Positions 17,757 to 35,114 of a stretch of DNA of 64,000 bases are shown piece after piece; positions within the stretch are counted from its first letter, which is position 1, and each line of letters begins with the position of its first letter. The notes below the pieces were generated by a model. The model was not told where the DNA came from. It was given only the letters and a program-made list of their open reading frames with translations, and did not search any database. The stretch comes from Lachnospiraceae bacterium (lineage in GTDB: Bacteria; Bacillota; Clostridia; Lachnospirales; Lachnospiraceae). The position numbers and the translations under genes are program-made. The stretch is taken from contig JAFWZV010000016.1 in NCBI GenBank assembly GCA_017517305.1, positions 1-64,000 on the forward strand, written 5' to 3'.

Positions 17757-18806
17757 TTAGTAATCCCCCTCTATAGCTTTTCTGTTTACATATTCCACAA
17801 ACTCGCCTACCTTGTCCATATCAGGATTATCAGGTAGAGATGTAGTCTTAGAAACACGCTCCAGCTCACTCTCATAATGAGCCAGCATATCATAGAACTC
17901 AGTTGTAAATGTATGGTCATCCTTCTGGAAACCACCATTTCTAATCTTAAGAAGTAGCTCCAAATCATCCGCACGATGAGTCTTAATAATACCCTTATCT
18001 AAGATATCAATAGCCATCATAAATAAGCGAATAAGGTGCATAGCATGCTTATTCAAATGGTTATCATCCTTCTTCTTGTTTCGCTTGCCAATCCTGTCGT
18101 ACTCCCTAATAACATTTGTAAGGGTGGAGAACAGAGTCTCATAGTTACGAAGTGGATAATGAGTATAATTTGTATCGATAAAAATCTCTGTATCAAGGCC
18201 TGGAGTGACAGCCTGGTCAATGTATAGCTTCATAGAACCATATTCAAAATTTGCATGCTTTAGGTTGAAATCATATAGGGCATTCTGCACCGATTTCAGA
18301 ATATGATGTTCACGCTCAGCCATAGGCATAGAATCTCTAGCTAAAGCATTCTGCAGTCTTCTAAGCTGTGCGCTGGCATATCCACCAAAGGACTTGATAG
18401 CTCTCTTGGAAAGGAAAAGTTCAGTATGGTCAATAATCTCCTGACCAAGCTTAGTCTTAATCAGATACTGGTCATCATCAAGCCCTAAAATCTCGCAGGT
18501 GTTAGGATTGCACTCAAGGAGAAGCTTGATGATTTTATTAAATGAATATATAACCGTGTCAGTTACTCTGTCTTCAAATTGCTCAAATTCAGTAAGGCCG
18601 AGAATGTCGGATGGCTGATTAAGTGCAATACCGCGGAAGTCGATGTCACTGTTTTCGTTGTTAGTGCCATAGGCATGGCTACCGCCTAGGCCTAGAAGAA
18701 TAATGCGGTCCCCTAGGTGTGGGTCAGTGCGGAGGAAGTCGTAGGCGGGGGTGGACATGAGGTGGGTGAAGTTTGGGGTGTTGGTTGTGATGTTTGGTTT
18801 GGACAT
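17757..18806 (-). CDS. Second RlaP-like nucleotidyltransferase
   Basis: The chosen start at 18806 has AGGAAG eight bases upstream; the frame is open for another 82 codons upstream, but that part lacks a good site. The 349-residue product has a polymerase-beta motif, LGLGGSHAYGT plus NSDIDFRG, followed by a long helical domain. It shares family features with the next gene but little close sequence, so the pair is probably a heteromeric or two-step enzyme system. The role is unknown. The divergent kwaA gene starts ~195 bp away, at the edge of the defence island. Confidence 0.75.
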   Translation of the reverse strand: MSKPNITTNTPNFTHLMSTPAYDFLRTDPHLGDRIILLGLGGSHAYGTNNENSDIDFRGIALNQPSDILGLTEFEQFEDRVTDTVIYSFNKIIKLLLECNPNTCEILGLDDDQYLIKTKLGQEIIDHTELFLSKRAIKSFGGYASAQLRRLQNALARDSMPMAEREHHILKSVQNALYDFNLKHANFEYGSMKLYIDQAVTPGLDTEIFIDTNYTHYPLRNYETLFSTLTNVIREYDRIGKRNKKKDDNHLNKHAMHLIRLFMMAIDILDKGIIKTHRADDLELLLKIRNGGFQKDDHTFTTEFYDMLAHYESELERVSKTTSLPDNPDMDKVGEFVEYVNRKAIEGDY

Positions 18807-18958
18807 AGGTGTCACTTCCTTTCTGTGGGGTGTTTTGTTCTTAGGGGGATTATAGCATAAGATGGTGGGGAGGAAAAGTAAGTAGGACAAGACGTTGAAT
18901 AGTGGGACAATGTAATGAGTGAAATCTAGTAGGTATGGGTGTATAATCAGATTATAAA

Positions 18959-18986
18959 TTGTCGAATAATGTATTTTGTATAGCAT
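18959..18986 (+). promoter_or_regulatory. Possible kwaA promoter
   Basis: TTGTCG at 18959-18964 and TAGCAT at 18981-18986 are separated by 16 bp. The start codon is only ~10 bp beyond the expected transcript start, and the match is weak. Confidence 0.35.
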
Positions 18987-19000
18987 AAGAGAGGGGACAA

Positions 19001-19531
19001 ATGGCAAATATTTCGCAGAAGATAGTATATAATTTATCGATAATAGCGCCACTGTTGATAATGACGTCGATGGTTTGGGTTATTCAAAATAATACTTATT
19101 GTATTCCAATACTATTAATATCAATAAGTATTACAATTATTATAGTATTTAAGGTTTCGTTTAGATATGCTTTGAAACATATGGCTCCAATAAAAATAAG
19201 AACTGAACAAATTTCGCCACATGATGAAAAGGCATTTTCGTATTTGCCTACATATCTTCTACCGTTTGCCAGTATAGTAATTAAAGAATTTAATCTAATT
19301 ATACTTTTTTGTATATCTTTGCTGATTATATGTGGAATGATATTTTGCAATACTGCATTTCCAAATCCTGTATTAATGTTAGGGAAGTATCATTTTTATC
19401 AAGTGTCTGCAGATAATGGAGTATCAAATTATTTGTTGATATCAAAACAAAAATATAGAAGTAAAAAACAATTAAATACAGTGTATAGAATGATGGAATT
19501 TTTATTAGTGGATTCAGAGGAGGTAGGATAA
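19001..19531 (+). CDS. kwaA: Kiwa anti-phage system membrane protein KwaA
   Basis: The 176-residue protein has four hydrophobic segments (~8-30, ~33-54, ~85-98, ~102-122) and a soluble C-terminal part. This size and topology match KwaA, and the next gene, 1 bp away, is a DUF4868 protein, the KwaB partner. In Kiwa, KwaA is the membrane component that senses phage attack and KwaB is the DNA-binding/effector partner. GAGAGGGG precedes the ATG. Confidence 0.85.
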   Translation: MANISQKIVYNLSIIAPLLIMTSMVWVIQNNTYCIPILLISISITIIIVFKVSFRYALKHMAPIKIRTEQISPHDEKAFSYLPTYLLPFASIVIKEFNLIILFCISLLIICGMIFCNTAFPNPVLMLGKYHFYQVSADNGVSNYLLISKQKYRSKKQLNTVYRMMEFLLVDSEEVG

Positions 19532-19532
19532 T

Positions 19533-20420
19533 ATGTTCGAAAATTGCTCAATTATGATTATAGGAACAAACCACACAGTAGATGAAATATATAGATTGGA
19601 TATGAATTCAGATACACAGAATGAAATAGTGGAAACTTTTGCAAAAGGAATACAAGAATTGACAGGAGAAAAAACTAGAATTTCATTTGACGGTAGTTAC
19701 AAGCCAAATGATGATGAATATCTAGTTATTGAAAATTTTAGATTGTCTGATGAAATTAAGGATGCAATAAGGAATCCAATAGGCGTACAAGGATTTAGAA
19801 AAAAGAATGATGATTATCCAGAAATAAAGGCAATATTTGTGGGTGAAAGAGAAGAAAATTCAAATGGAGAACAGTTTAAAGTGGCTTTTCAGCGCTTTAA
19901 GAAAGATCAGTATATTTCTACGGCATGGTATAACTTGTTTTTTGATAGAGATACTTTTTTACAGGAAAAAAGATTTGGAATTAGTATCTCAGATGTAGTA
20001 GATTGTTTCGTTGTTGATAATGAATTATGTTTTTCGTCATTCCATTTTACAAGGCAGATTTTTGACTTAAATGATTATTATCGTTCTGCAACAGATAAAG
20101 AGGTACATACATTCACCCAGAATTCAAAATTGATGTTAGAGGATGCGGATGCTTTTGAAGGAATGGCTAATACCATTATAAGAAGAAAAATTGCATTAAT
20201 TAATGATTCAAAAGTATTAGATAAATTTTCGGCTAATGAAATAAAAAGAGAGGCAAAAGCAATTGATATAGATATTGATGTAAAGGACAAAAAAATAGTG
20301 ATTCCAAATGATAAGGAGAAGGTGAAAATTATCTTGGGATTTTTGGATGAAGAAGCATTTAAAGGTCCGTTTTCAAAACACACATATTTGGCAAATTCGA
20401 AGAGAAAGCTTAATAGATAA
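19533..20420 (+). CDS. kwaB: Kiwa anti-phage system protein KwaB (DUF4868)
   Basis: The 295-residue protein has the DUF4868 layout: an N-terminal region with EYLVIENFRL, a middle RFGISISDVVDCFVVDNELCFSSFHFTRQIFDL block, and the typical end HTYLANSKRKL. It follows kwaA with one base between stop and start and AGAGGAGG overlapping the kwaA end. It is the cytoplasmic partner in Kiwa. Length is slightly shorter than, but compatible with, known KwaB. Confidence 0.85.
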   Translation: MFENCSIMIIGTNHTVDEIYRLDMNSDTQNEIVETFAKGIQELTGEKTRISFDGSYKPNDDEYLVIENFRLSDEIKDAIRNPIGVQGFRKKNDDYPEIKAIFVGEREENSNGEQFKVAFQRFKKDQYISTAWYNLFFDRDTFLQEKRFGISISDVVDCFVVDNELCFSSFHFTRQIFDLNDYYRSATDKEVHTFTQNSKLMLEDADAFEGMANTIIRRKIALINDSKVLDKFSANEIKREAKAIDIDIDVKDKKIVIPNDKEKVKIILGFLDEEAFKGPFSKHTYLANSKRKLNR

Positions 20421-20490: not shown

Positions 20491-20877
20491 ATGAATGATA
20501 GAATCAGTGTATAAATATATAGTTCAAATAAAAATCCTCATGGAGATTGGGGAGAATTCAGAAATCCTACAAATAGAAATCTAATAAAGGGTAAAACTTA
20601 CGTTCCAATACCAGTAAAATATGCTAGGAAGTATAATATCCAACGAGGAGATGTTTTTGTTGCTCATTTTTTTGATGGATATCCTTCGATTCAAATTAAG
20701 GCATCAGGAAATGGTCCGTATGAAGGGGGGATTCAATATGCTAAGCAATTTGTAGGCATAGGAAAAGGTGCATGCAAAGCATTCACACCATGGTATGAAT
20801 CTTGTGGCATAGAAGTAGGCGATTACGTTGAAGTGGAGTTTCTTTCGAGTAATGAGGTAATGTTTTCAAAATTATAG
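20491..20877 (+). pseudogene. Small island gene interrupted by an early stop codon
   Basis: A good ribosome binding site (TTAGGAGAAA) and ATG at 20491 lead to only seven codons before TAA at 20512-20514. The same frame then stays open for 120 codons to a stop at 20877 and reads as a well-formed protein (GKTYVPIPVKYARKYNI, DVFVAHFFDGYPSIQIKASG, KAFTPWYESCGIEVGDYVEV). No alternative start codon lies after the stop and before the conserved-looking part. A nonsense mutation is the simplest reading; a sequencing error or recoding is also possible. The beta-rich pattern looks like a small DNA-binding domain, but I cannot name a family. Confidence 0.6.
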
Positions 20878-21029: not shown

Positions 21030-22259
21030 ATGTTTTATAAAAAACAACCAGAATCAAACAGACAAAACTATAAAAAGATGCTAACCATAATAGGTCAATT
21101 ATCACACTTATTCTCTGAAAACGATGCCCCTTACTTGGCGTACAGAGTTCATGAAAATGTATTCTGTAAATACTTTCATGCTGAAAATCTAGCTAGAACG
21201 GATTGTTCTGCTGATGCGAAGAAAGACACTATTGGTATTGGCTTAAAAACATGGGTTGGAAATGACGATCAAAAAGTTGCAGAATTCGGAAAGTTAAAGA
21301 AATTTTATACAGATTTAACTGGACTTGAGTTAGTGAAAAAAATTTCGGAGTATAGAAATGAGAGAATTCGAGTCACAAAAAATCTTCATGGAATTACAGA
21401 TATGATATACCATGTTGTAAAAAGAATTCCTGGTGCTATGCAGATAATGGAGTGTACTTTTGATTATATTAATATCGATAATATAAAATTGATTCCTGAC
21501 AGGGGGAATGAAAACAATACATATTTCACAGATGGTAAACATACTTATCATTTTAGTGTATCAAAGAATACTTTGTATATGATTTTTGATGACTTAGAGT
21601 TGATGGATACTATAAATGTAAATATTCTTGATGATCCATACACTTTGTTAGAGAATGCTACAAAAGAACATGTAAATACAATGTTGGGATTTAATAAAAT
21701 AGATGCTGATGGTGGAGAAACATATTTCGAAGGGGATATTTTTACAGATAATATTACAATTGATCAAGTTATTCAAAACGAGAAAAAGGAACAACTTTGT
21801 TTGCCGCTTTATTCAGTTAAGAAGGGTGTGAAATTTGTTGGAGAAAAAAGTGGCTTGAATCAATGGAATGCAGGTGGTCGTAAGAGGAATATTAATGAAA
21901 TTTACATACCATATCAAAAGGTAGATAGAGATAGAAAATCAGATTTCTTCCCTCCTAGAGATACAGCTTTTACTTTGCATATGCCAGATGGTTCAGAGAT
22001 ATCAGCTAAAGTTTGCCAAGAAGCTGACAAGAATAATCCTGTAATTGGAAAGTCAATTATGAGTAACCCAAATAAAGTGTTAGGTAAGTGGCTACTTAGA
22101 GATGTGTTTGAGTTAGAAGAAGGAACTGTATTAACCTATGAAATGCTTGAAAAGTTTGGTATAGATAGTGTTGTTTTTACTAAGAATTCAGATTTGGATT
22201 ACTCCATTGATTTTGCAGAAATAGGCACTTACGAGAAATTTTATAGTATAGAAGAATAG
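21030..22259 (+). CDS. Type II restriction endonuclease, PD-(D/E)XK-like with C-terminal B3-like DNA-binding domain
   Basis: The 409-residue protein precedes a cytosine methyltransferase. Residues ~40-75 hold E42, D58, S60 and the GLK73 strand, a plausible PD-(D/E)XK core (DCSADAKK...IGIGLK). Residues ~257-405 match the B3-like recognition domain known from NgoFVII and BfiI-type enzymes: SGLNQWNAGGRKRNINEIYI, FFPPRDTAFTLHMPDG, KVLGKWLLRDVF and LDYSIDFAEIG. The enzyme is thus predicted to cut unmethylated DNA at the site protected by the partner methyltransferase. AAGGAGG precedes the ATG. A palindromic terminator follows directly. Confidence 0.75.
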   Translation: MFYKKQPESNRQNYKKMLTIIGQLSHLFSENDAPYLAYRVHENVFCKYFHAENLARTDCSADAKKDTIGIGLKTWVGNDDQKVAEFGKLKKFYTDLTGLELVKKISEYRNERIRVTKNLHGITDMIYHVVKRIPGAMQIMECTFDYINIDNIKLIPDRGNENNTYFTDGKHTYHFSVSKNTLYMIFDDLELMDTINVNILDDPYTLLENATKEHVNTMLGFNKIDADGGETYFEGDIFTDNITIDQVIQNEKKEQLCLPLYSVKKGVKFVGEKSGLNQWNAGGRKRNINEIYIPYQKVDRDRKSDFFPPRDTAFTLHMPDGSEISAKVCQEADKNNPVIGKSIMSNPNKVLGKWLLRDVFELEEGTVLTYEMLEKFGIDSVVFTKNSDLDYSIDFAEIGTYEKFYSIEE

Positions 22260-22362: not shown

Positions 22363-23334
22363 ATGTTAAAGTGTGCATCTTTTTTTGCTGGTGTTGGAGG
22401 AATAGATAAGGGATTTGAACATAATGAGTTGTTTAAAGTAGTATATGCTAATGAGTTTGACCCGTATCCAGTGAAAACATACGAATTAAATTCAAAGTTG
22501 AAAGTGGATTGTAGAGATATTAAAGAAGTACAGCCAGATGAAATTCCTGATTTTGATGTGATGTTGGCAGGTTTTCCGTGTCAGGCTTTTAGCGTCGCTG
22601 GATACCGAAAAGGTTTTGAGGATGAAAAGGGAAGGGGTACTTTGTTTTTCGAGTTGGTTAGAATTATAGAAGCGAAAGAACCGGAAATTGTATTCCTTGA
22701 AAATGTAAAGAATTTAGTAGGACATGATAATGGAAATACATTTAGGGTAATAAATGAATGTTTAGAGCAGAACGGTTATAAGGTATATCCTATGGTTCTT
22801 AATGCTATGGAATACGGAAACATACCCCAGAATAGAGAAAGAATATATTTGGTGTGTTTTAAGGATGAAAGAGTATATCAAAATTTCCGCCCACTTATGC
22901 CAATACCACTCAAGAAGAAACTGTCGGATATTATAGATTTTAAAACAAAAGTAGATGATAAGTATTATTATACAGAGGGAAAGTATAAAGGGGATATATA
23001 TGAGCAATTAGTAGCTGCGATGGATGATGAGAATGCGGTGTATCAGTGGCGAAGAAAATATGTAAGAAAAAATAAGAGTGGAGTAGTTCCAACCTTAACA
23101 GCTAACCAAGGTGAGGGCGGTCATAATGTATGTTTGATTAAAACAAAACATGGAATCAGAAAAATGACTCCTCATGAATGTTTCAATACGCAAGGATTTT
23201 CTAAGAAATTTAAATTGCCTAAAGATATGAGTGATGCGCGTCTTTACAAGCAGGCTGGTAATTCTGTTTGTGTGTCTGTTATTGAGAGATTGGCTGATAA
23301 GATAGCTGAAGCGTATAAAGCGGTAAATGCATAG
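22363..23334 (+). CDS. DNA (cytosine-5-)-methyltransferase of the restriction-modification system
   Basis: The 323-residue protein has all m5C motifs in order: I FFAGVGGIDKGFE, IV GFPCQAFSVAGYRKGFED with the catalytic Cys, VI LENVKNLV, VIII NIPQNRERIYLV, and IX-X RKMTPHECFNTQGF...QAGNSVCVSVIERLADKI. The target-recognition part between VIII and IX is short (~90 residues). It protects the host site from the upstream endonuclease. GGAGG precedes the ATG. Confidence 0.93.
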   Translation: MLKCASFFAGVGGIDKGFEHNELFKVVYANEFDPYPVKTYELNSKLKVDCRDIKEVQPDEIPDFDVMLAGFPCQAFSVAGYRKGFEDEKGRGTLFFELVRIIEAKEPEIVFLENVKNLVGHDNGNTFRVINECLEQNGYKVYPMVLNAMEYGNIPQNRERIYLVCFKDERVYQNFRPLMPIPLKKKLSDIIDFKTKVDDKYYYTEGKYKGDIYEQLVAAMDDENAVYQWRRKYVRKNKSGVVPTLTANQGEGGHNVCLIKTKHGIRKMTPHECFNTQGFSKKFKLPKDMSDARLYKQAGNSVCVSVIERLADKIAEAYKAVNA

Positions 23335-24042: not shown

Positions 24043-26124
24043 ATGATAGGTAGCGCAAAACCTTTAGTTAAATTTTTGGATGGTTCAAGCACTAGATTTA
24101 TAATACCTGTTTATCAAAGAAACTATGACTGGAAGATTGTGAATTGTACACAACTGTTTGATGATTTGATAAAGGTTGTAAAGACACCGAATAGAGATTC
24201 GCATTTCTTTGGCAGTGTGGTGTCTGTAGCTAATATACAGGGTGCTTCAAGTGAAATGTTGATTATAGATGGTCAACAAAGAATAACAACAATATCCTTA
24301 TTATTTTTGGCACTGGTTAATTTGTTGAAAGATGGAAGGGTTGAATCTGAAAAAACATATTTAGCAGATCAAATTCAGAATACATATCTTATTGATCCTT
24401 ATGAACCAGAAGAGAAAAAAGTTAAGTTAAAGCCAATCAAAGATGATCAGGATGCTTTCTTGAAATTATTTGGGGACAAGGAAGAATATAATATGACTTC
24501 TAATGTTACTCAAAATTATATGTATTTTTATAACAGAATTCAGAAAGGTGAATTGACTCCAGAAGAAATTTTTAATGCCATATGTTCTCTTGTTATTATA
24601 GATATTTCTCTTGACCCGACTAAGGATGATGCTCAATTGATATTTGAAAGCTTAAATTCAACTGGATTGGACTTGAGTGAAGGTGATAAAATAAGAAATT
24701 TCATACTAATGGGTTTGGATTCTGATAAACAGGAAAGGTATTATAATAAATATTGGAATAAGATTGAAAAAGATACGGATTACCAGGTTAGTGATTATGT
24801 AAGGCATTATCTGACTATTTCTTTGGGTAGAACACCAGCGATTAAAGAGGTATATAGTTGCTTTAAAAGTTATGTAGAGAAAAATAAGTTTGAAACTGAA
24901 GAATTACTTCTTAATATGGTTAAATATGCCAAGTATTATAAAGAGATTAAGAATTCAAGTACTAATGTGTACAAAGCAAATATTGTGTTATCTAGACTAA
25001 ACGTATTAGACATGAGTGTTTCTATTCCGTACTTGATGGGATTATGGGAATATAGAGAGAACGTTGGCATGATAGATACAGAATTTGTAGAAGTATTAAC
25101 AGTCATAGAAACTTATATATTTAGAAGAATGATATGTGGTGTTCCTACCAATGCGTTAAATAAGATTTTTGCAATGTTGCATAAAGACTGTATTAGATAC
25201 AAAAAAGATAATGATCAATATGTAGAAGTATTAAAGTATCTTTTGAATAGCAAAGTTGTTTCTGGACGTATGCCAAAAGATAGTGAGTTCTTAAGGAGTA
25301 TAGAGGAAAAGAATATATACTCTATGCAAGCTAAGAATAAAATGTATTTATTTGATCGTCTTGAAAATGAAGATTCAGTTGAACATACAAATGTAATTCA
25401 AATGATGCAAGATGGTGTGTACACTATAGAGCATATTATGCCACAAACATTATCTAATGCTTGGAAAAAAGATTTGGGAACAAACTATTTGGAAATACAT
25501 GACAAGTGGATAAATAGATTAGCAAATCTAACTTTAACAGGATATAATTCTCAATATAGTAATAGATCGTTTTTGGAAAAAAGAGATACCGAGAAAGGAT
25601 TCAAAGATAGCCATTTACATATAAATGCAGAAATTGCAAAATGTGAAAAATGGACAGAGGATGAAATAATCCAGAGAAATAATATGTTAAAAGGTAAGTT
25701 CCTTGTATTGTGGTCGTACCCAACGAGTTCTTATGAACCAGAGAAGGTATTAAATGAGATGCATACCTTGGATGAGGATTATGACTTTAAAGGAAAGTAT
25801 TTTGTCTCATATTCTTTTTTAGATACACCATATTCAGCCAATAGTTGGTCTGATATGTATCAGCAAGTTGTAAAATTCTTGTTTGAGTTGGATGCAACTA
25901 TTATTTATAAACTAGTAACTGATAATACTGGTTTAGGAATACATTTTTCTGATAAAGAGGAGAAAGGTTTTGTTGAAATCGAAGACAAGGTATTCTTGTA
26001 TGTTGCAACATCTACCATGTCAAAAATTAGTGCGTTGAAAAAATTGTTTTCAATGTATGAGTTAGATGGAAGTGAACTTGTATTAGAAATCCAGAGTGAA
26101 GAAACAAATGAAGAAAATGACTAG
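24043..26124 (+). CDS. DUF262/DUF1524 protein, GmrSD-like type IV restriction enzyme
   Basis: The 693-residue protein has DUF262 at its N-terminus (FIIPVYQRNYDW ~21-32; LIIDGQQRITTISLL ~73-87) and DUF1524 (HNH-like) at ~455-530 with YTIEHIMPQTL, NRLANLTLTGYNSQYSNRSF. A further domain at ~585-685 (FVSYSFLDTPYSANSW...IHFSDKEEKGFVEI) looks like a DUF5655-type C-terminal domain. GmrSD enzymes use NTP and cut modified phage DNA; DUF262 binds nucleotide and DUF1524 is the nuclease. GGAGG precedes the ATG and a terminator follows. Confidence 0.88.
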   Translation: MIGSAKPLVKFLDGSSTRFIIPVYQRNYDWKIVNCTQLFDDLIKVVKTPNRDSHFFGSVVSVANIQGASSEMLIIDGQQRITTISLLFLALVNLLKDGRVESEKTYLADQIQNTYLIDPYEPEEKKVKLKPIKDDQDAFLKLFGDKEEYNMTSNVTQNYMYFYNRIQKGELTPEEIFNAICSLVIIDISLDPTKDDAQLIFESLNSTGLDLSEGDKIRNFILMGLDSDKQERYYNKYWNKIEKDTDYQVSDYVRHYLTISLGRTPAIKEVYSCFKSYVEKNKFETEELLLNMVKYAKYYKEIKNSSTNVYKANIVLSRLNVLDMSVSIPYLMGLWEYRENVGMIDTEFVEVLTVIETYIFRRMICGVPTNALNKIFAMLHKDCIRYKKDNDQYVEVLKYLLNSKVVSGRMPKDSEFLRSIEEKNIYSMQAKNKMYLFDRLENEDSVEHTNVIQMMQDGVYTIEHIMPQTLSNAWKKDLGTNYLEIHDKWINRLANLTLTGYNSQYSNRSFLEKRDTEKGFKDSHLHINAEIAKCEKWTEDEIIQRNNMLKGKFLVLWSYPTSSYEPEKVLNEMHTLDEDYDFKGKYFVSYSFLDTPYSANSWSDMYQQVVKFLFELDATIIYKLVTDNTGLGIHFSDKEEKGFVEIEDKVFLYVATSTMSKISALKKLFSMYELDGSELVLEIQSEETNEEND

Positions 26125-26167: not shown

Positions 26168-26199
26168 CACTTACGTAAATACAACTATCACTTATGCAA
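26168..26199. promoter_or_regulatory. Direct-repeat operator, copy 1 (LytTR-type)
   Basis: CACTTACGTAA (26168-26178) and CACTTATGCAA (26189-26199) start 21 bp apart. Two helical turns is the usual spacing of LytTR-family binding sites. It lies ~215 bp before the sensor kinase gene. A near-identical element follows the response regulator gene. The rest of the 26200-26413 gap holds a perfect palindrome TTGTCCGGACAA (26238-26249). Confidence 0.6.
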
Positions 26200-26350
26200 A
26201 CCCTATTTACAATTGTAGCCAAAAAGATATTATGAACTTGTCCGGACAATACATATAGTATATACGGAAAGGACAAGATTGTGTGTGGTTTATGGTTTGA
26301 CCTCTTTGTTTATTTATTAGGATATTAAGAGGTATAGAACAAATTATTCT

Positions 26351-26405
26351 TCCGTAATTAGTTTATATTTGATATATTTAAGTAAAGTATAATGCTAATT
26401 ACGGA
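26351..26405 (+). promoter_or_regulatory. 11-bp inverted repeat around the kinase -10 box and ribosome binding site
   Basis: TCCGTAATTAG (26351-26361) is the complement of CTAATTACGGA (26395-26405), which overlaps the GGAGG site. A TATAAT at 26388-26393 lies between the arms. In a read-through transcript the hairpin would bury the ribosome binding site; a transcript starting from this TATAAT would lack the 5' arm. It may instead be a protein operator. Confidence 0.45.
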
Positions 26406-26413
26406 GGATGAAA

Positions 26414-27742
26414 ATGACAGTTCTATTTTATATTATAACTGATATATTCCATATTATATCCATATTTTTATTATGTACGGTATTGTTCAAATTTAAGTTA
26501 CAGAATAGAGTGAAAAATAGGATATATAAACTTATTATCACAACAGTTATACTGATATTGTCTATAAGTATATATTTGATGAATAACTTAATAGCAAAAA
26601 CAATATTATCTACATTAGTAATTGTTGTCATACTATGTTTTAGTTATGATGAAAAGAAATTAAATATTGTTGTATCTGGTTTGTGGATAATGACAATAAT
26701 AGCAATGCTTGAAACTATGTCTATCATTCTTCTTGAATTGATAGGGAAATTGGTGGGATATAACAATGATGTTTTATTGAGATTATGTGTATCTGTGTTT
26801 GATTTCTTTTTAATTGTAATTTTTGGGAAGATATATAACAAGCAATACAGACGAAGCATAAGTTCGATTGGTATATGTAACATATTAGCATTTACTGCAT
26901 TGACGTGTATTGATACAATTATAGTGATGTTTTTAGCAGTTATTACACGTGTGGAAAAGCAAGTAACCAACCAGATGGTATTTTTCATCGCATTCATCCT
27001 AGTCATACTTGGCCTATTCCTCCAGCTAGGCGCTGTAATTCTAATTCTAGTTCAACGAAACGTCTACAAAGAGGGTCAACAAATCACCGAAAAGTACCTA
27101 GAAGAACAAAAGGGTCACTATCAATACCTGGAACAGCGTGAAATCGAAACCAAGAAGTTTAGACATGACCTAAGAAGCCATATGGGGTTGTTATCAGTAT
27201 TGGTCAAAGAACACAAATATGACGAATTCGATAAGTATGTTGATAAAATTAATATTAAGATTGATAGCTTTGGTAATAATGTCACAGTTCAAAATGGTAT
27301 AGTTGATGCCGTCATTAATAAGTATTATTCAGAGGCCACTGCTAATAATGTTAATATGGAGGTAAAAGGCCGTTTCCCTAGCGATTGTGAGATTGATGCA
27401 TACGATTTATGTACAATATTTTCAAACGTTTTGAGCAATGCAATAGAAGCGACCGTAGAGTCAACGAATAAATGGATGAGTGTTGATTGCAGATACACTG
27501 ATGATAACATAATAGTTGTGGTGAAGAATTCATTTGATAACACAAATCAAGTAAGAAATGGTAAGGCGAATACCCATAAGAAGGATATCAATAATCACGG
27601 GTTTGGTCTTGAGAATGTGAAGGAAAGCATCAAAAAATATAACGGTATATGGGACATTGATATACAAGAGGATGTATATTCTATAACAATATCATTTAAT
27701 TATGATAGACTGGAAGGAAATTATGAAGATAGCGATAATTGA
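26414..27742 (+). CDS. AgrC-like GHKL sensor histidine kinase
   Basis: Of two in-frame ATGs (26408 and 26414) the second has correct spacing to GGAGG. The 442-residue protein has six or seven membrane segments (~1-210), a DHp-like region with the phospho-accepting His in KFRHDLRSHMG (~250), and a GHKL ATPase with FSNVLSNAIEAT (~338) and NHGFGLENV (~395). This is the layout of peptide-sensing AgrC/FsrC kinases. Its stop overlaps the response regulator start by 20 bp. No agrB/agrD peptide genes are adjacent, so the signal is unknown. Confidence 0.88.
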   Translation: MTVLFYIITDIFHIISIFLLCTVLFKFKLQNRVKNRIYKLIITTVILILSISIYLMNNLIAKTILSTLVIVVILCFSYDEKKLNIVVSGLWIMTIIAMLETMSIILLELIGKLVGYNNDVLLRLCVSVFDFFLIVIFGKIYNKQYRRSISSIGICNILAFTALTCIDTIIVMFLAVITRVEKQVTNQMVFFIAFILVILGLFLQLGAVILILVQRNVYKEGQQITEKYLEEQKGHYQYLEQREIETKKFRHDLRSHMGLLSVLVKEHKYDEFDKYVDKINIKIDSFGNNVTVQNGIVDAVINKYYSEATANNVNMEVKGRFPSDCEIDAYDLCTIFSNVLSNAIEATVESTNKWMSVDCRYTDDNIIVVVKNSFDNTNQVRNGKANTHKKDINNHGFGLENVKESIKKYNGIWDIDIQEDVYSITISFNYDRLEGNYEDSDN

Positions 27743-28424
27743 TGATGAACAACATTGGAGATATTCGGCAGAACAGATTGTAAGCAAATATTACGCTAAT
27801 GTTGAGGTAAATATAGACATCTATGAAGATGGAGAGCAATACTTAAAGAGCAAGGTAAAATATGACATATCATTTGTGGATATAGAGATGCCTGGTGTGG
27901 ATGGGTTTACCACCATAGAGAGGGCGAGAGAATATAATCCGGAAGGGATATTTATTATATTAACCACTCACACTGAGATGAGTCGTAAAGGTTATCTGGT
28001 TAATGCATTTAGATACATTGACAAGCTCAAGCTGGTGGATGAAATGATTGAAGCCATGAGGTCCGCAGAGATACTGTTGGGACGTAACAGAAAGATTGAA
28101 GTAAACATCACAGATGTTGGAATACGTAAATTAGTATTGAAAGATATAATTTATATCGAAACAGAAAAGCATCATATTCTGGTGCACACAAATGAAAAAA
28201 TTATACAATGTAATAATACTATGAAAGAAATGGAAGCAATACTTGACGCAAGTTGGTTCTTCAGATGCCACAATTCATACATTGTTAATCTGGATGAAAT
28301 ATCCAGGGTTGATAAGAAAATTATTTATTTAAAAAATGGAGATAACATCGACATAGCACAGAGAAAGGCTGCAGAATTTAATAGAGCTTACTTAAAGAGA
28401 CAATATGAATGTGGGAATGCATAG
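27723..28424 (+). CDS. LytTR-family response regulator
   Basis: The start is taken at the ATG after GGAAGGAAATT, inside the kinase stop region. The 233-residue protein has a receiver domain (AIIDDEQHW; phospho-Asp in SFVDIEMPG ~52) and a LytTR DNA-binding domain (~130-230; YIETEKHHILVHT, FFRCHNSYIVNLDEI). LytTR proteins bind paired direct repeats ~21 bp apart; such pairs flank this two-gene unit at 26168 and 28471, so autoregulation and control of the following genes are likely. Confidence 0.9.
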   Translation: MKIAIIDDEQHWRYSAEQIVSKYYANVEVNIDIYEDGEQYLKSKVKYDISFVDIEMPGVDGFTTIERAREYNPEGIFIILTTHTEMSRKGYLVNAFRYIDKLKLVDEMIEAMRSAEILLGRNRKIEVNITDVGIRKLVLKDIIYIETEKHHILVHTNEKIIQCNNTMKEMEAILDASWFFRCHNSYIVNLDEISRVDKKIIYLKNGDNIDIAQRKAAEFNRAYLKRQYECGNA

Positions 28425-28425
28425 A

Positions 28426-28455
28426 AAGTCACCGGGAATGAACGGTGGCTTTTTT
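28426..28455 (+). terminator. Terminator after the LytTR regulator gene
   Basis: AAGTCACCG pairs with CGGTGGCTT (one G-T type pair) and is followed by a T run. Confidence 0.8.
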
Positions 28456-28470
28456 GTTGTCAAAATACAT

Positions 28471-28502
28471 CACTTACGCAAAACGAACTATCACTTATGC
28501 AA
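28471..28502. promoter_or_regulatory. Direct-repeat operator, copy 2 (LytTR-type)
   Basis: CACTTACGCAA (28471-28481) and CACTTATGCAA (28492-28502) have the same 21-bp period and nearly the same spacer (ACGAACTAT) as copy 1 at 26168. It lies 85 bp upstream of the XRE regulator start, where an activator site would be expected. Confidence 0.65.
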
Positions 28503-28586
28503 GGGTAGTTGAGTGAAACCCTAGAAGTAGATAGAATGAATAATAAGTCGAAATGGGTAGTTTTATGTATTGTGGGAGAAGAGTAT

Positions 28587-28898
28587 ATGTTTGATAAAAA
28601 GGCGTGCGGACGCAGGTTAAAGCAGCTTAGAATGGATAAAAATATGCATCAGGATGAAGTTGCTACTGAAATGGGCATTTCTGCAGATACAGTTAGCAAA
28701 TTGGAGCAAGGGAAAAGATCTCCATCAGCTACTATGGTATGTATTTTAGCAAATTACTATAAGACAACAGCTGATTATATTTTATTTGGCGTTGCAAGGG
28801 ATGGTTGCGCAGGGAATGAGTGGATAAGTGAGTTATCGGTAGATAAGAGGAGAAGGGTTGAGAGGATGATTGAGGAGTTGAAGGGGTTGGTGGAGTAG
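28587..28898 (+). CDS. XRE-family regulator heading the helicase/AAA cassette
   Basis: The ATG at 28587 after GGGAGAAGAG is preferred over an upstream TTG in frame. The 103-residue protein has a standard Cro/CI-type HTH (LKQLRMDKNMHQDEVATEMG, SADTVSKLEQGKRSPSATMV, LANYYKTTADYILFG) and a short basic helical tail. It has no peptidase domain. It lies 71 bp before the helicase gene in the same direction and downstream of the second LytTR-type operator, so it is probably the local repressor or activator of the cassette. Confidence 0.85.
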   Translation: MFDKKACGRRLKQLRMDKNMHQDEVATEMGISADTVSKLEQGKRSPSATMVCILANYYKTTADYILFGVARDGCAGNEWISELSVDKRRRVERMIEELKGLVE

Positions 28899-28969
28899 GG
28901 GGGTGTAGTATTTATTAAATACAAATAATTATTTTAGGCATATTAATAAATCTATAGGTGGTGAATTAT

Positions 28970-31348
28970 ATGGAACAAGCTTTGAGAATAAATTTAAGCG
29001 TTGAGCAGTTAAGGATAGTAAATAGCAAGTCTGTTGGCAGTAGTTTAATAAAAGGTGTGGCGGGAAGTGGAAAAACAACTGTAGCGCTTTTTAAGTTAGC
29101 TAATTTGTTGAGAAATGGATTGGATGGAGAAAAAGTATTAGTGGTGACCTATAATAAAACACTAGTAAGATACATGGAGTTTTTATGTGAAGAGTATGGA
29201 ATATCACTTGATTCAAATAATGTTAATATAAGTACCATAGATAGTGTTATTGCAAAACTGTATAATTCCTGTAATGGTAACACTCCAAATGTAGATACGA
29301 AACAACAAAGGGAGATGATGAACTATGCTATTTGGAAAACTGCAGAAAAATTTCCTAATTGTCAAATTATTAATAGTAAAAATTTAAATTTTTTGATAGA
29401 AGAAATACTTTGGATAAAGTGCTGTAGATATATTGATAAAAATGAATATATGAATATTGATAGATTAGGCAGAAATAGTATAGGTGAAAATACATTAAGA
29501 CTTGCTAAGAATTCAGAAAGTCGTGAAGCGATTTTTGAATTGTTTTTACAATATGAAAATTTGCTAAAGAGAAATGGATTAACTGACTATTATTCAAAAG
29601 CATTAAAAACATTGGAACAAATAAAAAGTGATTACATAACACCACAACGATATAGGTATATTATTGTTGATGAAAGTCAAGACTTATCAAGAGTTCAATT
29701 AGAAATAGTTAAGGAATTATATGATGAAGCACCAGACAGTAATATAATTTTTATAACAGATGTAGCACAGAGTATATATTACCAGTCGTGGTTGTCAAAA
29801 CAAAGTTTTAAAAGTATCGGGTTTGATATGTCAGGTAGGTCAAATATATTATCCAAGAACTATCGAACTACTAAACAAATTGCAAAAGCCTCATATTCAT
29901 TGATAAATAATGATAGTGAGCTAAAATCCAGTAATGACTTTGTAGAACCAGAATTGATTAATAGAGATGGGTTTAAACCTCGATATAGACATTTTTGCAA
30001 CCAAATTGAGGAATTTGATTATGTTTTTCATGAAATAAAAAAGTGTACTAATACACATAATTTAAGAGATATTGTTATTGTTGCAAGAAATAAAGGCTAT
30101 CTAAATAATATGAAACAATATCTTTTAAAAAATAAAGTAGATGCAGAGGTTTTTACTGATAGAAAAAACGATAACGAGGATTTCTTTACATCTGATAGAG
30201 TAAAATTAATAACTATGCATTCTATCAAAGGTCTTGAGGCAAAAGTTGTATTTATTGTTGGTTTGAATAAAGACATAATTCCTTTGGAGTGTGACAGAGT
30301 AGATGCAGAGAGGAAACTGCTCTATGTAGGAATGACTAGAGCAAAGGATATTCTATATTTAACTAGCAATGGAGAAGAATCACAATTTATACATGAGATT
30401 GATAGTAATATGCTTCAACTGTCAGATGATGAAAAGGAACAATTTCATTGTATATCGATAGATGATTTTTTGTTCTTGGACAAGGTGAAAGATGTTAATC
30501 AAGTTGAAGAGCAGGTTCGTCAATGGTACCTAAAAGTGTTACAAAACAATTATGGATATTCCGTTGAGCAAATCAGAATTGAGGATGTTATAAAAGATGG
30601 AAGTAAAACCTATTATGTAGATATTGCTGTATATGATGATAATACTTGTGAAAATCCATTTATTTATGTTGAAACAAAATCACCAGGTGAAAATTTACAA
30701 CATGCGTTGAAGCAATTACAAAGTTACAATGAGAAAGGTATCTCTGCCAAGTATTTAGTTGTTACTGATGGAAATATAATATTGGTCAGACGATTTGTTG
30801 ATGGAAGGTATATTGCTTGTAATGATATACCTTTAGAAAGATATAAGTTTTGTACTAGCTATAAATATCGTGATATAAAAAATAACGAAGAGTATGAGTA
30901 TGTGGTGGACTCTGACGGGAAAATATATATAAAAAACAGAACACAAAAAATAAATAGTACATTTAATCTATTTATTATTGGTGTGGTAACAGCGGGTAGG
31001 TTACAGTACGCATATAATAATTATTTGGGGACGGAAATTGTTCCAGTAAGAAATGTAGCTGGCTATGAAAAATTCTTTTTGCTTCAAGTTTCTGGAGATA
31101 GTATGCTAGAGTTCGGAATTGATGATGGTGACACGCTAGTAGTTGATGGTAACCAGTCTGCTCAATATGGAGATATAATTGTAGCCGGTAGCAAAATGTT
31201 AAACGAGGCCACTGTAAAGCAATGTTTGCCATATAGTGATGAATATATAATGCTTCATCCGGGAAATAAAAAATATGAAGATACGTATATTAATGTTAAT
31301 GACTTTTTTGTTAATGGTGTTGTTGTGGGTGTGATAAAAAAGTATTAA
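28970..31348 (+). CDS. UvrD-type helicase fused to HsdR-N-like nuclease and LexA-type S24 peptidase
   Basis: Start at 28970 has AGGTGGTG upstream; 792 residues. Residues ~10-480 are an SF1 helicase: Walker A GVAGSGKTT (~28-36), VDESQDLS (~233), SKNYRTTKQIA (~295), LITMHSIKGLEAKVVFI (~414) and ERKLLYVGMTRAKD (~447). Residues ~510-605 resemble the type I restriction HsdR N-terminal nuclease domain, with a PD-(D/E)XK pattern YVDIAVYDD...IYVETKS. Residues ~670-792 are a LexA/UmuD-like S24 domain: Ala675-Gly676 in VVTAGRLQ, Ser711 in VSGDSM, Lys750 in EATVKQ, and GVVVGVIKKY at the end. The Ala-Ser distance (36) and Ser-Lys distance (39) are close to those of LexA (35 and 37). I infer a helicase-nuclease controlled by self-cleavage. 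It is coupled to the AAA_13 gene 29 bp downstream. Confidence 0.85.
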   Translation: MEQALRINLSVEQLRIVNSKSVGSSLIKGVAGSGKTTVALFKLANLLRNGLDGEKVLVVTYNKTLVRYMEFLCEEYGISLDSNNVNISTIDSVIAKLYNSCNGNTPNVDTKQQREMMNYAIWKTAEKFPNCQIINSKNLNFLIEEILWIKCCRYIDKNEYMNIDRLGRNSIGENTLRLAKNSESREAIFELFLQYENLLKRNGLTDYYSKALKTLEQIKSDYITPQRYRYIIVDESQDLSRVQLEIVKELYDEAPDSNIIFITDVAQSIYYQSWLSKQSFKSIGFDMSGRSNILSKNYRTTKQIAKASYSLINNDSELKSSNDFVEPELINRDGFKPRYRHFCNQIEEFDYVFHEIKKCTNTHNLRDIVIVARNKGYLNNMKQYLLKNKVDAEVFTDRKNDNEDFFTSDRVKLITMHSIKGLEAKVVFIVGLNKDIIPLECDRVDAERKLLYVGMTRAKDILYLTSNGEESQFIHEIDSNMLQLSDDEKEQFHCISIDDFLFLDKVKDVNQVEEQVRQWYLKVLQNNYGYSVEQIRIEDVIKDGSKTYYVDIAVYDDNTCENPFIYVETKSPGENLQHALKQLQSYNEKGISAKYLVVTDGNIILVRRFVDGRYIACNDIPLERYKFCTSYKYRDIKNNEEYEYVVDSDGKIYIKNRTQKINSTFNLFIIGVVTAGRLQYAYNNYLGTEIVPVRNVAGYEKFFLLQVSGDSMLEFGIDDGDTLVVDGNQSAQYGDIIVAGSKMLNEATVKQCLPYSDEYIMLHPGNKKYEDTYINVNDFFVNGVVVGVIKKY

Positions 31349-31377
31349 TTAAGTAATTTAATTATTAGGAGGAACGT

Positions 31378-33726
31378 ATGATAGCAAGTGTAAAAAAAAT
31401 TAAAGATATAGGCGTCTTTAAAGATTACGAACAAAGAAAGACTGGTTTGGTGAGGGATTTTAGAAAGAAAAACTATATATATGGGTTGAATACATATGGT
31501 AAATCTACATTGTGTGATATCTTAAAAGATATTTCAGATGATTCGGTTGAGCGAATAAAAAAAAGACTCACAATACCTAATGGAGTCAATCAAGATGTTG
31601 TTTTGAGTTTGACAGATGGTGTAGGCGTTGTGAAATTAAGTGGAGAAACTTGGTTGAATAACAAATTAAAAGATAAAATAATGGTATTTGATACAGAGTT
31701 TGTGATAAATAATGTTTCTGATGGGACTAAATTAATTGAGGATAGAGCAACCAAGGAAAACTTTACTGAATTTATATTGGGTGATAAAGGTGTTGCCTTG
31801 GCGCAGAAAATAGAAGAACTTAAAAGAGAGGTCAAGGAGGAAAAAGGAAAACTTCAATCGATGACACCCTATTCAAAAAGAGGGGAGAGTGATGCGACAA
31901 TTAAGAAATATGTTAAGTTACAAGTTCAAGAAGAACTTGAGGATTTAGAAGGTTTAAAGGAAGAAATATTAAAGCAAATTAATACTAATAATCAGAGAGA
32001 AAAAAATAGAGCAGATATTAAAGGATATAAAGCTATTACTGTACCTAGTTGTGCTAAGCTAATATCACTAATCAAAGAAATAGAGGGAGTTAAATGTATT
32101 TTGGAGACAAATTATTCTATGTCTGCCAATACGCTTGTTACTTTTGAGAAACATATAAGAAATGTATGTCATGGAATAAAAGGGGTACAAGAGTGGATTA
32201 GCCAGGGGATCCATTTAATGGATGGTGATACAATATGCCCATTTTGTGGACAGGAAATTGAAGATAAATCCTTGATTAATGCATTTTCAGAGTATATGAG
32301 TGAAGAGTATCAGTTGTTTAAAAAGAATTTGAAGCAAAAAATTCTTGCGGTGAATATTAATTGGGATGTTTTATCTGTAGCTAATGATGTTATGGAAATA
32401 AAAAAGCAAATTCAAAATGCGGAGAAAATATTCGGGGAAGGTGTTTCATTATGGAATAATGATATAGATAAACTTTATCAAGAAATGATTTTGAAGGAAA
32501 AGAAGTATTGTACTGAGGTTAATGAGTTTAGAGAAAAGGTTAATTTAGCTTTAAAAAATAAAGTCGTATTATGCAATGTGGAAATTGCTCTTGATACATC
32601 GATTTTAGAGGACATTAAAAGATATTATGATGAAAAATTAGAGTCTATATGTGAGATTGTAAATAGAATTAACGAAGTGATTTATGGCATACAGGCGGAT
32701 ATTGATAGTAGCTCTTTTGAGAACAAAAATGCTGAGTTGTTAAAGAAATTGCAAGTCTATGAGCTGAAAATAGAAAGATTAAATGAAAGTAATGATTGTG
32801 AAAAATGGAAAAATCAGTATGCGTTAGTCGAGGACAAGAATAGACAAGTGAAAGAAATGTCAGAAATGCTAGAATTGGATCAAAAAGAATACTTGGATAT
32901 TTATTTTAATACAATTGATGAAATTTTTAGACGATTTGGAGCGCATAAATTCAAAATTGAGAGAGGGGATTTTAGTAATAAAGGGTATAAAAAGATATTT
33001 GGTGTTAAAATCTCATTTAAGAATGTGATATTATCTGAAACAGGTATGACGGAAAGGATTTTTAGTGAATCGGACAAAAGAGCTCTTGCCCTTGCTGTTT
33101 TTATGGCAAAACTTGAATGTATGCCTGAGGATGAAAAGAAAAACATTATTTTAGTGCTCGATGATCCAATTACAAGTTTTGATGATAATAGGATGAGAAA
33201 TGTTGTGAATAATTTGATTAATGTTTCAGATGCAGTAGAACAAACATTTATTTTTTCACATCATTTTATGTTTTCTAAAATGTTCAGTGATAGGTATTCT
33301 GATCAGATTAATTTTTACAAGATAGATCGTATGACGGGGGAGTCTAATGGATTATTTGAAATGAATTCTAGAGAAGAGTTTATGACAGGATTTGATAAAG
33401 CTTATTTACGAGTTGCAAAATTTAACAGTTCAGAAACAAAAGATATGTCAGAAAATGAGTTGAGAATTTTTTTAGAGGAATATTTGAAAACAGTTTTTGC
33501 TAAACAGTATGCTGAACTTAATTTGGAAAAGGAAAAATTAGGAGTTCGAATTGATGAATTAGCAAATCTTGGTTTGATAACGCCTGATGTAAAAACAAAA
33601 TTGCATTATTTCCGAAACGAATTGAATTCGGGCTCTCATACCTTTCAAGATAATACTATTGAAGATGATAGGAACTTTTCTATTGATTTTGTCACATATT
33701 TATTTGATAATGTTCATATGGGATAG
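31378..33726 (+). CDS. AAA_13 (RloC/PrrC-like) ATPase with zinc-hook coiled coil
   Basis: The 782-residue protein has Walker A GLNTYGKST (~39-47), a long coiled coil interrupted at ~285 by a CPFCGQEI zinc-hook motif, an ABC-type signature/Walker B region ESDKRALALAVFMAKLE...NIILVLDDPITSFDD (~560-602), the switch histidine in FIFSHHFMF, and a C-terminal helical domain with HYFRNELNSGSH (~742-753). This is the RloC/PrrC layout of Rad50-like ATPases; in those the C-terminal domain is an anticodon nuclease using Arg, Glu and His. An R...H pair is present here but the triad is not proven. TTAGGAGG precedes the ATG. It is co-directional with the helicase fusion, forming a two-gene effector unit. 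Confidence 0.82.
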   Translation: MIASVKKIKDIGVFKDYEQRKTGLVRDFRKKNYIYGLNTYGKSTLCDILKDISDDSVERIKKRLTIPNGVNQDVVLSLTDGVGVVKLSGETWLNNKLKDKIMVFDTEFVINNVSDGTKLIEDRATKENFTEFILGDKGVALAQKIEELKREVKEEKGKLQSMTPYSKRGESDATIKKYVKLQVQEELEDLEGLKEEILKQINTNNQREKNRADIKGYKAITVPSCAKLISLIKEIEGVKCILETNYSMSANTLVTFEKHIRNVCHGIKGVQEWISQGIHLMDGDTICPFCGQEIEDKSLINAFSEYMSEEYQLFKKNLKQKILAVNINWDVLSVANDVMEIKKQIQNAEKIFGEGVSLWNNDIDKLYQEMILKEKKYCTEVNEFREKVNLALKNKVVLCNVEIALDTSILEDIKRYYDEKLESICEIVNRINEVIYGIQADIDSSSFENKNAELLKKLQVYELKIERLNESNDCEKWKNQYALVEDKNRQVKEMSEMLELDQKEYLDIYFNTIDEIFRRFGAHKFKIERGDFSNKGYKKIFGVKISFKNVILSETGMTERIFSESDKRALALAVFMAKLECMPEDEKKNIILVLDDPITSFDDNRMRNVVNNLINVSDAVEQTFIFSHHFMFSKMFSDRYSDQINFYKIDRMTGESNGLFEMNSREEFMTGFDKAYLRVAKFNSSETKDMSENELRIFLEEYLKTVFAKQYAELNLEKEKLGVRIDELANLGLITPDVKTKLHYFRNELNSGSHTFQDNTIEDDRNFSIDFVTYLFDNVHMG

Positions 33727-34138: not shown

Positions 34139-34519
34139 ATGTCCACAATCCTACTATCCATCAACCCAGTCCACGTTAACAACATACTAACTGGGAAAAA
34201 ACAATATGAATTCAGAAAAAAAGCCTGCAAGCGAAAAGTAGATAAAATTATTATCTATTCCACAACACCTGTTATGAAGGTTGTTGGTGAAGCTGAAGTG
34301 GAGCAGGTGCTGATTGACAAGCCTAGCAAGGTTTGGAATATTACCAAGAGTAAATCAGGCATAGACAAAAACTTCTTTGATGCATACTACAAGGATCGTG
34401 ATGAAGCTGTTGCATATAAGCTTATCAATGTTATAAAATACAGAGAACCAAGAGAATTAAAGGACTACGGCATAAAGTGTGCTCCACAGTCATATCAGTA
34501 TATTGAAGAGACTATATAA
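34139..34519 (+). CDS. ASCH-domain protein
   Basis: The 126-residue protein fits the ASCH fold (PUA-like, predicted RNA or modified-nucleotide binding): SINPVHVNNILTGKKQYEFRKK at the N-terminus with the family's G-K-K-x-Y-E-F-R-K block, then IIIYSTTPVMKVVGEAEV. Proteins of this kind often start genes in mobile or accessory regions. AAGGAGCATTTCC lies before the ATG. The stop codon falls within a terminator hairpin. Confidence 0.8.
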   Translation: MSTILLSINPVHVNNILTGKKQYEFRKKACKRKVDKIIIYSTTPVMKVVGEAEVEQVLIDKPSKVWNITKSKSGIDKNFFDAYYKDRDEAVAYKLINVIKYREPRELKDYGIKCAPQSYQYIEETI

Positions 34520-34540
34520 CCCATAGCCTCTTCATTTTTT
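34505..34540 (+). terminator. Terminator of the ASCH gene
   Basis: GAAGAGACTAT and ATAGCCTCTTC pair (one mismatch) around ATAACCC and are followed by ATTTTTT. The hairpin sequence recurs almost exactly at 35082. Confidence 0.8.
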
Positions 34541-34682
34541 AACCACAGGTATAGTGAATTATGAAACAATTAAAGTTATAATATTACCAGATGTTGTAAT
34601 ATACAACATCTGGCAATTTCTATACAAACCTGCACATTATATTATAAACAAACTTCAACCTAGAGAAGAAAGGAACACATTC

Positions 34683-35033
34683 ATGAAAGAAAAAAGCGAA
34701 ATGGAAATATTATATGAACAATACCTAGAAAGCGAAAATCTCACATACGAGAAGGATGGAATACTTTTTTACAAACTAGTAAAAAAGGAAAAGGTAAAAC
34801 TAAAAGGTGGAATGGTATTGATAACTGTACCCAATAAAGTAGTTAGATATATCAAGGATTCTTATTGTGATGAAAATGGAAATAAAATATTGATTGATTC
34901 ACCTGTGCACTACAGCTTTGGAGCGAATGATATCCCTAAATGGTATATTGAAACAGTAACCCTGCCGGTTAAAGAAATATCGGATATTGCTGAAATCGGT
35001 GATTATTTAGGAAGAGACTGTGCTGTAGAATAA
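34683..35033 (+). CDS. Hypothetical protein
   Basis: The ATG at 34683 with GAAGAAAGGAAC upstream is preferred to an earlier in-frame ATG at 34554 that lacks a site. The 116-residue product is acidic-helical at the start (EMEILYEQYLESENLTYEKDG) and then beta-rich (GMVLITVPNKVV, VHYSFGANDIPKWYIETVTLPV). I do not recognise a family. It sits between two copies of the same terminator. Confidence 0.6.
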   Translation: MKEKSEMEILYEQYLESENLTYEKDGILFYKLVKKEKVKLKGGMVLITVPNKVVRYIKDSYCDENGNKILIDSPVHYSFGANDIPKWYIETVTLPVKEISDIAEIGDYLGRDCAVE

Positions 35034-35081
35034 ATACAAGCAAATTCAAGAAGGTATATAATATGAACTAGTATATACATC

Positions 35082-35114
35082 AAAGAGACTATATAACCCA
35101 TAGTCTCTTTTTTT
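35082..35114 (+). terminator. Terminator, second copy of the 34505 hairpin
   Basis: A perfect 11-bp stem AAAGAGACTAT/ATAGTCTCTTT around the identical ATAACCC loop is followed by T7 and then AACCACAAGTTTAATG. Confidence 0.85.

Follow-up and report, generated by a model that had tools for sequence, protein, structure and literature searches.

A 64,000-nucleotide stretch of contig JAFWZV010000016.1 from a Lachnospiraceae bacterium (assembly GCA_017517305.1), referred to here as the window, encodes a protein in which a UvrD-type helicase, a PD-(D/E)XK nuclease domain and a LexA-type S24 peptidase domain are joined in one open reading frame (ORF). This fusion is the second gene of an operon, between an XRE-family regulator (gene 1) and an RloC-type ATPase (gene 3). 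As judged from its relatives in other genomes, the fusion is a stand-alone, sporadic protein family without a constant partner, and the point of interest is the fusion itself, not the fusion-RloC pair. We tentatively favor, with confidence a little short of even, a RecA-gated helicase-nuclease whose LexA-type tail is cleaved at Ala679-Gly680, release of the tail more probably serving as activation.

The fusion protein and its family

ORF calling and translation of the window confirmed three same-strand ORFs, an XRE regulator, a 796-amino-acid (aa) fusion and an AAA_13 ATPase, as had been proposed in an earlier sequence-only reading of this DNA. The UvrD-helicase, UvrD_C, HSDR_N_2 and Peptidase_S24 models each scored above the Pfam cut-off within the single unbroken frame, bearing out the proposed fusion of a UvrD-type helicase, an HsdR-N-like PD-(D/E)XK domain and a full S24 domain. 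Residues of the fusion are numbered from GTG 28958, the start in the ORF list (28958-31348, 796 aa); the start codon is likely ATG 28970 instead.

Relatives were found in genome contigs by two helicase peptide patterns (motifs IV and VI), and the best 80 of 137 were taken. Together with a search of same-family genomes, this contig scan gave 86 loci including the window, of which 4 were duplicates, leaving 82 distinct sequences. A phylum search contributed 8 further independent loci (6 others were already in the set), for a total of 89 besides the window. The same fused frame was present in 79 further distinct sequences, indicating that the fusion is not a local accident, and two more (L034 and L090) had an open frame missing one end. 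Among the 82 distinct sequences, K39 (Walker A), D238/E239, D555, E572, K574, Q586 and Y590 showed no variation where covered, the five nuclease positions from D555 to Y590 being identical in 82/82. The nuclease part of the family profile matched RM.BsaXI in the PDB (1.9e-5), and a QxxxY motif lies beside the PD-(D/E)XK residues, which we take to be a RecB/AddB-like feature.

Ala679-Gly680, S715 and K754 were invariant in all 81 sequences that cover those positions, supporting the earlier suggestion that the self-cleavage residues are conserved. A curated LexA model aligned with residues 659-795 at 73.5 bits, below its equivalog cut-off of 110.95, and the UmuD model scored 59.2 bits. Ranking of PDB entries by the nuclease-protease family profile placed LexA (4.4e-35) before UmuD' (1.3e-23) and CI (1.7e-9). 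The S24 part thus appears nearer LexA than UmuD or CI, though it falls below the LexA equivalog cut-off.

The fusion was found in 6 of 299 same-family genomes (E <= 1e-60). In the phylum set, 15 of 398 genomes gave a match spanning the nuclease-protease part in full, with open frames of 796-869 aa that leave room for the helicase; both counts include the window's own genome. Degraded or partial copies were present in two genomes of the phylum search (G688 and G348), and the other matches listed were mostly to the S24 part alone, in LexA-size frames. Labels in the 82-row tree were Bacillota for 79, Thermodesulfobacteriota for 1 (Desulfosarcina, L065) and none for 2; a Bacillus-type homologue is that of L086, whose entry is labelled Bacillus subtilis DE0224. 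We rejected the possibility of a phage gene. Among 50,697 phage records, 48 matched, none over 80% of the fusion, and all 20 matches listed fell in the helicase part. In viral contigs, the fusion had two partial matches, both to its helicase, and the RloC-type gene had none. In plasmids, relatives of the RloC-type gene with less than 60% identity were seen in 28 records.

A short form of 487-499 aa occurred in three of eight genomes of one Clostridium-like genus (L128:2334-3821, L146 and L147), two of the copies sharing 79% and 73% identity with that of L128. The S24 domain, with Ala-Gly, Ser and Lys, is retained along with the first part of the helicase, whereas the second half of the helicase and the nuclease domain are missing. 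A full-length copy was not seen in two of these three genomes (search at E <= 1e-30).

S24 domains dimerise in LexA, so the S24 part of the fusion could serve dimerisation alone, as a structural element that does not act as a switch. We regard this as improbable, given that the cleavage site and the Ser/Lys dyad are invariant among sequences 35-55% identical to the window protein (20-row sample), and that the protease residues are retained in the short form as well.

Possible control by DNA damage and competing readings

LexA boxes were searched for at the 86 loci (duplicates included) in stretches of 310 bp, made up of the 250 bp before the ORF and its first 60 bp (150 bp in all for L016). 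The strict box (GAACN4GTTY or RAACN4GTTC) was present in none of these 86 stretches and in none of the 8 further loci, so membership of the SOS regulon is not supported. By comparison, the strict pattern occurred at least once in 14 of 14 control loci of LexA-sized S24 genes (~3.4 kb each; background ~0.13 per locus), comprising L113-L125 and the best S24 match in the window's own genome, which were not individually confirmed as lexA; since these stretches exceed the tested ones in length, the comparison indicates that the pattern suits these bacteria and gives no exact rate. The sole GAACN4GTTY in the window is at 20594, away from the operon. Since no strict LexA box lies upstream, damage control of the fusion, if real, should be post-translational rather than exerted through a LexA box.

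In the mechanism that we tentatively favor, production of the fusion would not depend on the SOS regulon, and the protein would dimerise through its LexA part. RecA-coated single-stranded DNA, arising from broken or stalled forks, phage replication or incoming DNA, would be the trigger, and the RecA filament would provoke LexA-like cleavage at Ala679-Gly680, freeing a 679-residue helicase-nuclease from a 117-residue tail. Release would probably mean activation, with limited DNA degradation that stops the invader or the infected cell. The invariant protease residues, the LexA-like character of the S24 domain, the lack of a strict LexA box and the sporadic occurrence of the family were counted in favor of RecA gating.

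Shut-off, rather than activation, is a close rival. Cleavage ends the repressor activity of LexA and CI, and ClpXP recognises a signal on cleaved LexA; both points were counted for shut-off. The intact fusion would then be an active restriction or end-processing enzyme that RecA-triggered cleavage removes during host DNA damage, a reading that we consider rather doubtful. Residues 677-679, just before the predicted bond, are V or I (81/81), A (73) and A (81), and the C-terminus exposed by the cut, in most cases V/I-A-A, might look like a ClpXP signal, though the cleavage site itself requires such residues; the degron argument is thereby confounded with cleavage-site conservation, and the window's own site, V-T-A, speaks against it. 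That the nuclease-less short form still holds the protease residues is a further point for shut-off. The logic would be comparable to the restriction alleviation of EcoKI, whose HsdR is degraded by ClpXP (PMC11109961).

Several observations weigh against a RecA-gated fusion acting in defence. The looser pattern RAACN4GTTY was found in 2 of the 86 upstream stretches, both as AAACN4GTTT (1.7 expected), and 2 of the 8 further loci carried AAACGTTTGTTT, also of the loose AAACN4GTTT type. Because helicase motifs IV and VI served as search patterns, their conservation is no independent evidence; the remaining residues played no part in the selection. Judging by the short form, the protease part appears to be of use even where the nuclease is absent, which speaks against its acting solely as a simple inhibitory tail. 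Many neighbours of the fusion resemble housekeeping genes, which makes a defence role of the solo protein less secure. Finally, in four genomes of one genus (L137-L140) the fusion lies beside the same gene, peroxiredoxin-like by reading, and in L140 it is near gyrase-like genes; a constant neighbour of this kind would be expected for a vertically inherited gene.

The immediate neighbours of the relatives comprised 118 proteins of at least 120 aa, which were tallied per family (25 families listed) with no control set, so that no enrichment is claimed. A NERD domain was present in 10 and an HRDC domain in 9 of them. At eight Clostridium-type loci (L044, L059, L076, L080, L081, L082, L085 and L087), a NERD-type gene, in most cases also with HRDC, lies 4-37 bp upstream of the fusion, and at L048 one lies 17 bp downstream. 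The NERD-type protein is therefore a possible partner of the fusion in the Clostridium-type branch. Matches to defence models were scattered: type IV and type I restriction, PDC-M26A, PbeA, retron reverse transcriptase, PsyrA and JetD. A defence role of the fusion is plausible from these comparisons.

The protein could also be a damage-responsive helicase-nuclease serving the host in housekeeping-type DNA repair, as the RecB/AddB-like QxxxY motif, the often housekeeping-like neighbours and the stable location within one genus would suggest. We think this unlikely: a strict LexA box is lacking, presence is sporadic, copies are degraded or partial in G688 and G348, and some neighbours match defence models (retron reverse transcriptase, PsyrA, JetD, and type I and type IV restriction), the tally having no control set.

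The RloC-type gene and control of the operon

The sequence-only reading had taken the fusion and gene 3 for a new two-gene system. At least 500 bp were visible downstream of the fusion in 84 and upstream in 85 of the 89 other loci. A gene-3-like protein was the next sizeable same-strand gene downstream in only 1 of the 84, L062, where it begins 321 bp past the end of the fusion (22.7% identity, E 1.2e-13) and carries RX3E-X41-SH and CAFC; a small ORF on the opposite strand is called in the interval. L133 has a weaker AAA_13-like protein several genes away, and L018 and L029 gave weak profile matches; very divergent RloC neighbours could be missed, as the Pfam and PADLOC neighbour tallies cover the 25 families listed. 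No gene-1-like protein lay directly upstream on the same strand at other fusion loci (phmmer E <= 0.01), a search that divergent XRE proteins could escape; L090 has a divergent gene-1-like protein upstream. Conversely, the fusion was not seen around four RloC relatives, L141 and L142 (BLAST of ORFs) and L143 and L144 (annotation). A conserved two-gene system is not supported by these flank counts and was rejected. In the window the two genes are on the same strand, 29 bp apart, with a LytTR site upstream common to both, and L062 offers one further near pair; set against a single pairing among 84 loci and four RloC relatives without the fusion, a true defence system of two genes, or three with the XRE protein, is nevertheless highly improbable.

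Gene 3 matched AAA_13 (E 6.5e-37, residues 16-760) and DUF4145 in Pfam, and the PADLOC candidate PDC-S06 over residues 1-779 of 782 (E 2.3e-137). The gene is rare: with the window's own genome counted, a match was present in 1 of 299 genomes of the family at E <= 1e-20 and in 3 of 398 of the phylum at E <= 1e-15. RloC is an anticodon nuclease that combines a Rad50-like ABC ATPase, bearing a zinc hook, with a HEPN nuclease. The RloC family is defined by an ABC ATPase, a CXXC hook and a C-terminal Arg-X3-Glu-X36-52-His, often with Ser before the His (PMC2610378); its nuclease has been assigned to HEPN (PMC3710099). Gene 3 has a single CXXC (CPFC, 287-290), and a CXXC is present in all six aligned proteins; the RX3E columns, R696 and E700, are invariant in the same six. 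These positions are near R692, E696, H737 and C291 of Geobacillus kaustophilus RloC (PMC2610378). A Ser-His pair is at 753-754, and the spacing from Glu700 to His754 is X53, one past the published X36-52. His743, at X42, is inside the published range, yet L144 has Asp at that column. Gene 3 thus largely fits the published signature, and AAA_13, CXXC and RX3E uphold its earlier description as an AAA_13 ATPase with an RloC-like zinc hook; a tRNA nuclease role is predicted. PDC-S06 is named in a table for Streptococcus thermophilus (PMC11514479), which was not used as support.

Upstream of the operon lie genes for a histidine kinase and a response regulator with a LytTR domain. LytTR regulators use a direct repeat with a 12-bp gap ~10 bp upstream of the -35 element (PMC6193735). 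The repeat in front of the operon has this arrangement, with a 12-bp gap and ~10 bp before a -35-like hexamer, and a repeat is also found at the predicted own promoter of the LytTR regulator. With up to 3 mismatches, the extended repeat pattern matched twice in the 2.72-Mb genome, once in front of the operon and once in front of the histidine kinase gene, and the reversed control gave 0. Since the only other site precedes the histidine kinase/LytTR pair, these results suggest that the two-component pair controls itself and the fusion operon. Single half-sites with one mismatch were in mild excess in the window (5 vs 1.87 expected; 3 of 100 shuffles as high). The promoter call is weak, with 9 of 12 consensus matches and 40 promoter-like sites in the region vs 33.6 expected from shuffles. 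The region 26168-28502, in which the repeat of the LytTR pair precedes both the pair itself and the operon that follows, may thus represent a signal-controlled defence operon.

DNA-break inducers activate RloC (PMC3874168); if its relatives here behave alike, the operon of this strain would pair two damage-gated effectors, the fusion and the RloC-type protein, with transcription set by the adjacent LytTR pair and perhaps also by the XRE protein. It is possible, and we hold this with more reserve than RecA gating as such, that the SOS trigger acts directly on the protein, RecA filaments causing the LexA tail to be cut off the helicase-nuclease with no transcriptional step, and that in this strain the fusion is co-expressed with RloC under a two-component, possibly cell-to-cell signal, system.

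Features of the fusion operon, its upstream region and the surrounding island (window positions)
Feature	Position	Strand	Basis or remark
KwaB	19533-20420		island neighbour
Type II restriction endonuclease	21030-22259		island neighbour
C5 methylase	22363-23334		island neighbour
GmrSD	24043-26124		island neighbour
LytTR-type direct repeat before histidine kinase gene	26168..26199	+	second half-site ATCACTTAT, first less perfect
GHKL histidine kinase	26408..27742	+	HATPase_c_5
Response regulator with LytTR DNA-binding domain	27702..28424	+	
LytTR-type direct repeat in front of operon	28469..28498	+	ATCACTTAC-12 bp-ATCACTTAT
Promoter-like TTGAGT-17-TAGAAT	28509..28537	+	-35 begins 10 bp past repeat
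XRE-family regulator (HTH_3), 103 aa	28587..28898	+	Pfam match
UvrD helicase + HSDR_N_2 nuclease + LexA-type S24 fusion	28970..31348	+	Pfam matches, one frame
SF1A UvrD helicase region, fusion residues 14-470	28997..30367	+	Pfam and family alignment
HSDR_N_2 PD-(D/E)XK nuclease domain (D555, E572-x-K574, Q586-x3-Y590)	30506..30832	+	
Peptidase_S24 domain, LexA type; predicted catalytic S715 and K754	30974..31327	+	
Predicted self-cleavage bond Ala679-Gly680	30992..30997	+	family alignment
RloC-type ABC ATPase/HEPN protein, 782 aa	31378..33726	+	PADLOC PDC-S06
CXXC zinc-hook motif (CPFC, gene 3 residues 287-290)	32236..32247	+	
RX3E of putative anticodon-nuclease triad (gene 3 R696, E700)	33463..33477	+	
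Candidate catalytic His754 (GSH) of gene 3	33637..33639	+	alternative His743

Island setting and relation to known systems

Matches to KwaB, a type II restriction-modification pair and GmrSD agree with the defence island, containing Kiwa, restriction-modification and GmrSD-like genes, that had been described around the operon. RlaP ("RNA repair pathway DNA polymerase beta family") was matched by two adjoining genes on the minus strand (16997-17755 and, more weakly, 17757-19052); as this pair shares the island with a predicted tRNA nuclease of RloC type, it could conceivably be connected with the damage or repair of tRNA. Downstream of the operon, the PADLOC candidate PDC-M11B was matched at 34139-34519 (E 8.5e-44) by a protein with no Pfam domain, and a 39-nt direct repeat, 85% identical (34499-34537 and 35076-35114, 577 bp apart), encloses a small ORF at 34554-35033. 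No tRNA genes were found within the window, and an insertion-site comparison of an 18-kb stretch with one genome of the same genus gave two short matches only.

LexA-type autoproteases are familiar on repressors and on UmuD. Like them, the fusion has a LexA-type peptidase, an Ala-Gly site and a Ser/Lys dyad; unlike them, it carries a helicase-nuclease in place of a DNA-binding repressor domain, scores below the curated LexA cut-off, and is encoded by a gene without a strict LexA box. With Gabija the fusion shares a UvrD-like helicase and partial matches to the GajB model, but its nuclease and protease sit inside the helicase protein. A Gabija relative was rejected, as no OLD/TOPRIM (GajA) model matched gene 1 or gene 3, the latter being AAA_13 and DUF4145 only. 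The best PADLOC match of the fusion was C3a187 (NERD+UvrD; 144.5 bits), in which a nuclease-related domain is likewise joined to UvrD; the match is best over residues 205-482 only, the nuclease domain of the fusion differs, and S24 is absent from the C3a187 name. CapK/CapS likewise tie DNA damage to immune operons, through kinase-repressor transcriptional control (PMC13373217), whereas the switch of the fusion would sit inside the effector. A study applying a LexA inhibitor to Zorya II contains no such fusion in the part available (PMC13192584) and was not used as support.

A description of the helicase-nuclease-LexA fusion was not found among the titles and abstract starts listed from the open-licence PubMed Central literature, which is weak evidence of absence. 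The sequence-only reading had not recognised the combination as described; gene 3 already carries a candidate name in PADLOC, PDC-S06. Each domain is known by itself, and what is undescribed, as far as searched, is the way they are combined and the post-translational SOS control that this implies.

That an autoprotease is conserved in one protein with an enzyme predicted to unwind and cut DNA, and that the gene has no strict LexA box, suggests that an effector enzyme may be a direct target of SOS signalling. If true, RecA filaments would thereby be tied to immunity or to degradation of the genome, and the RloC and LytTR context of the fusion would offer a regulatory circuit open to test.

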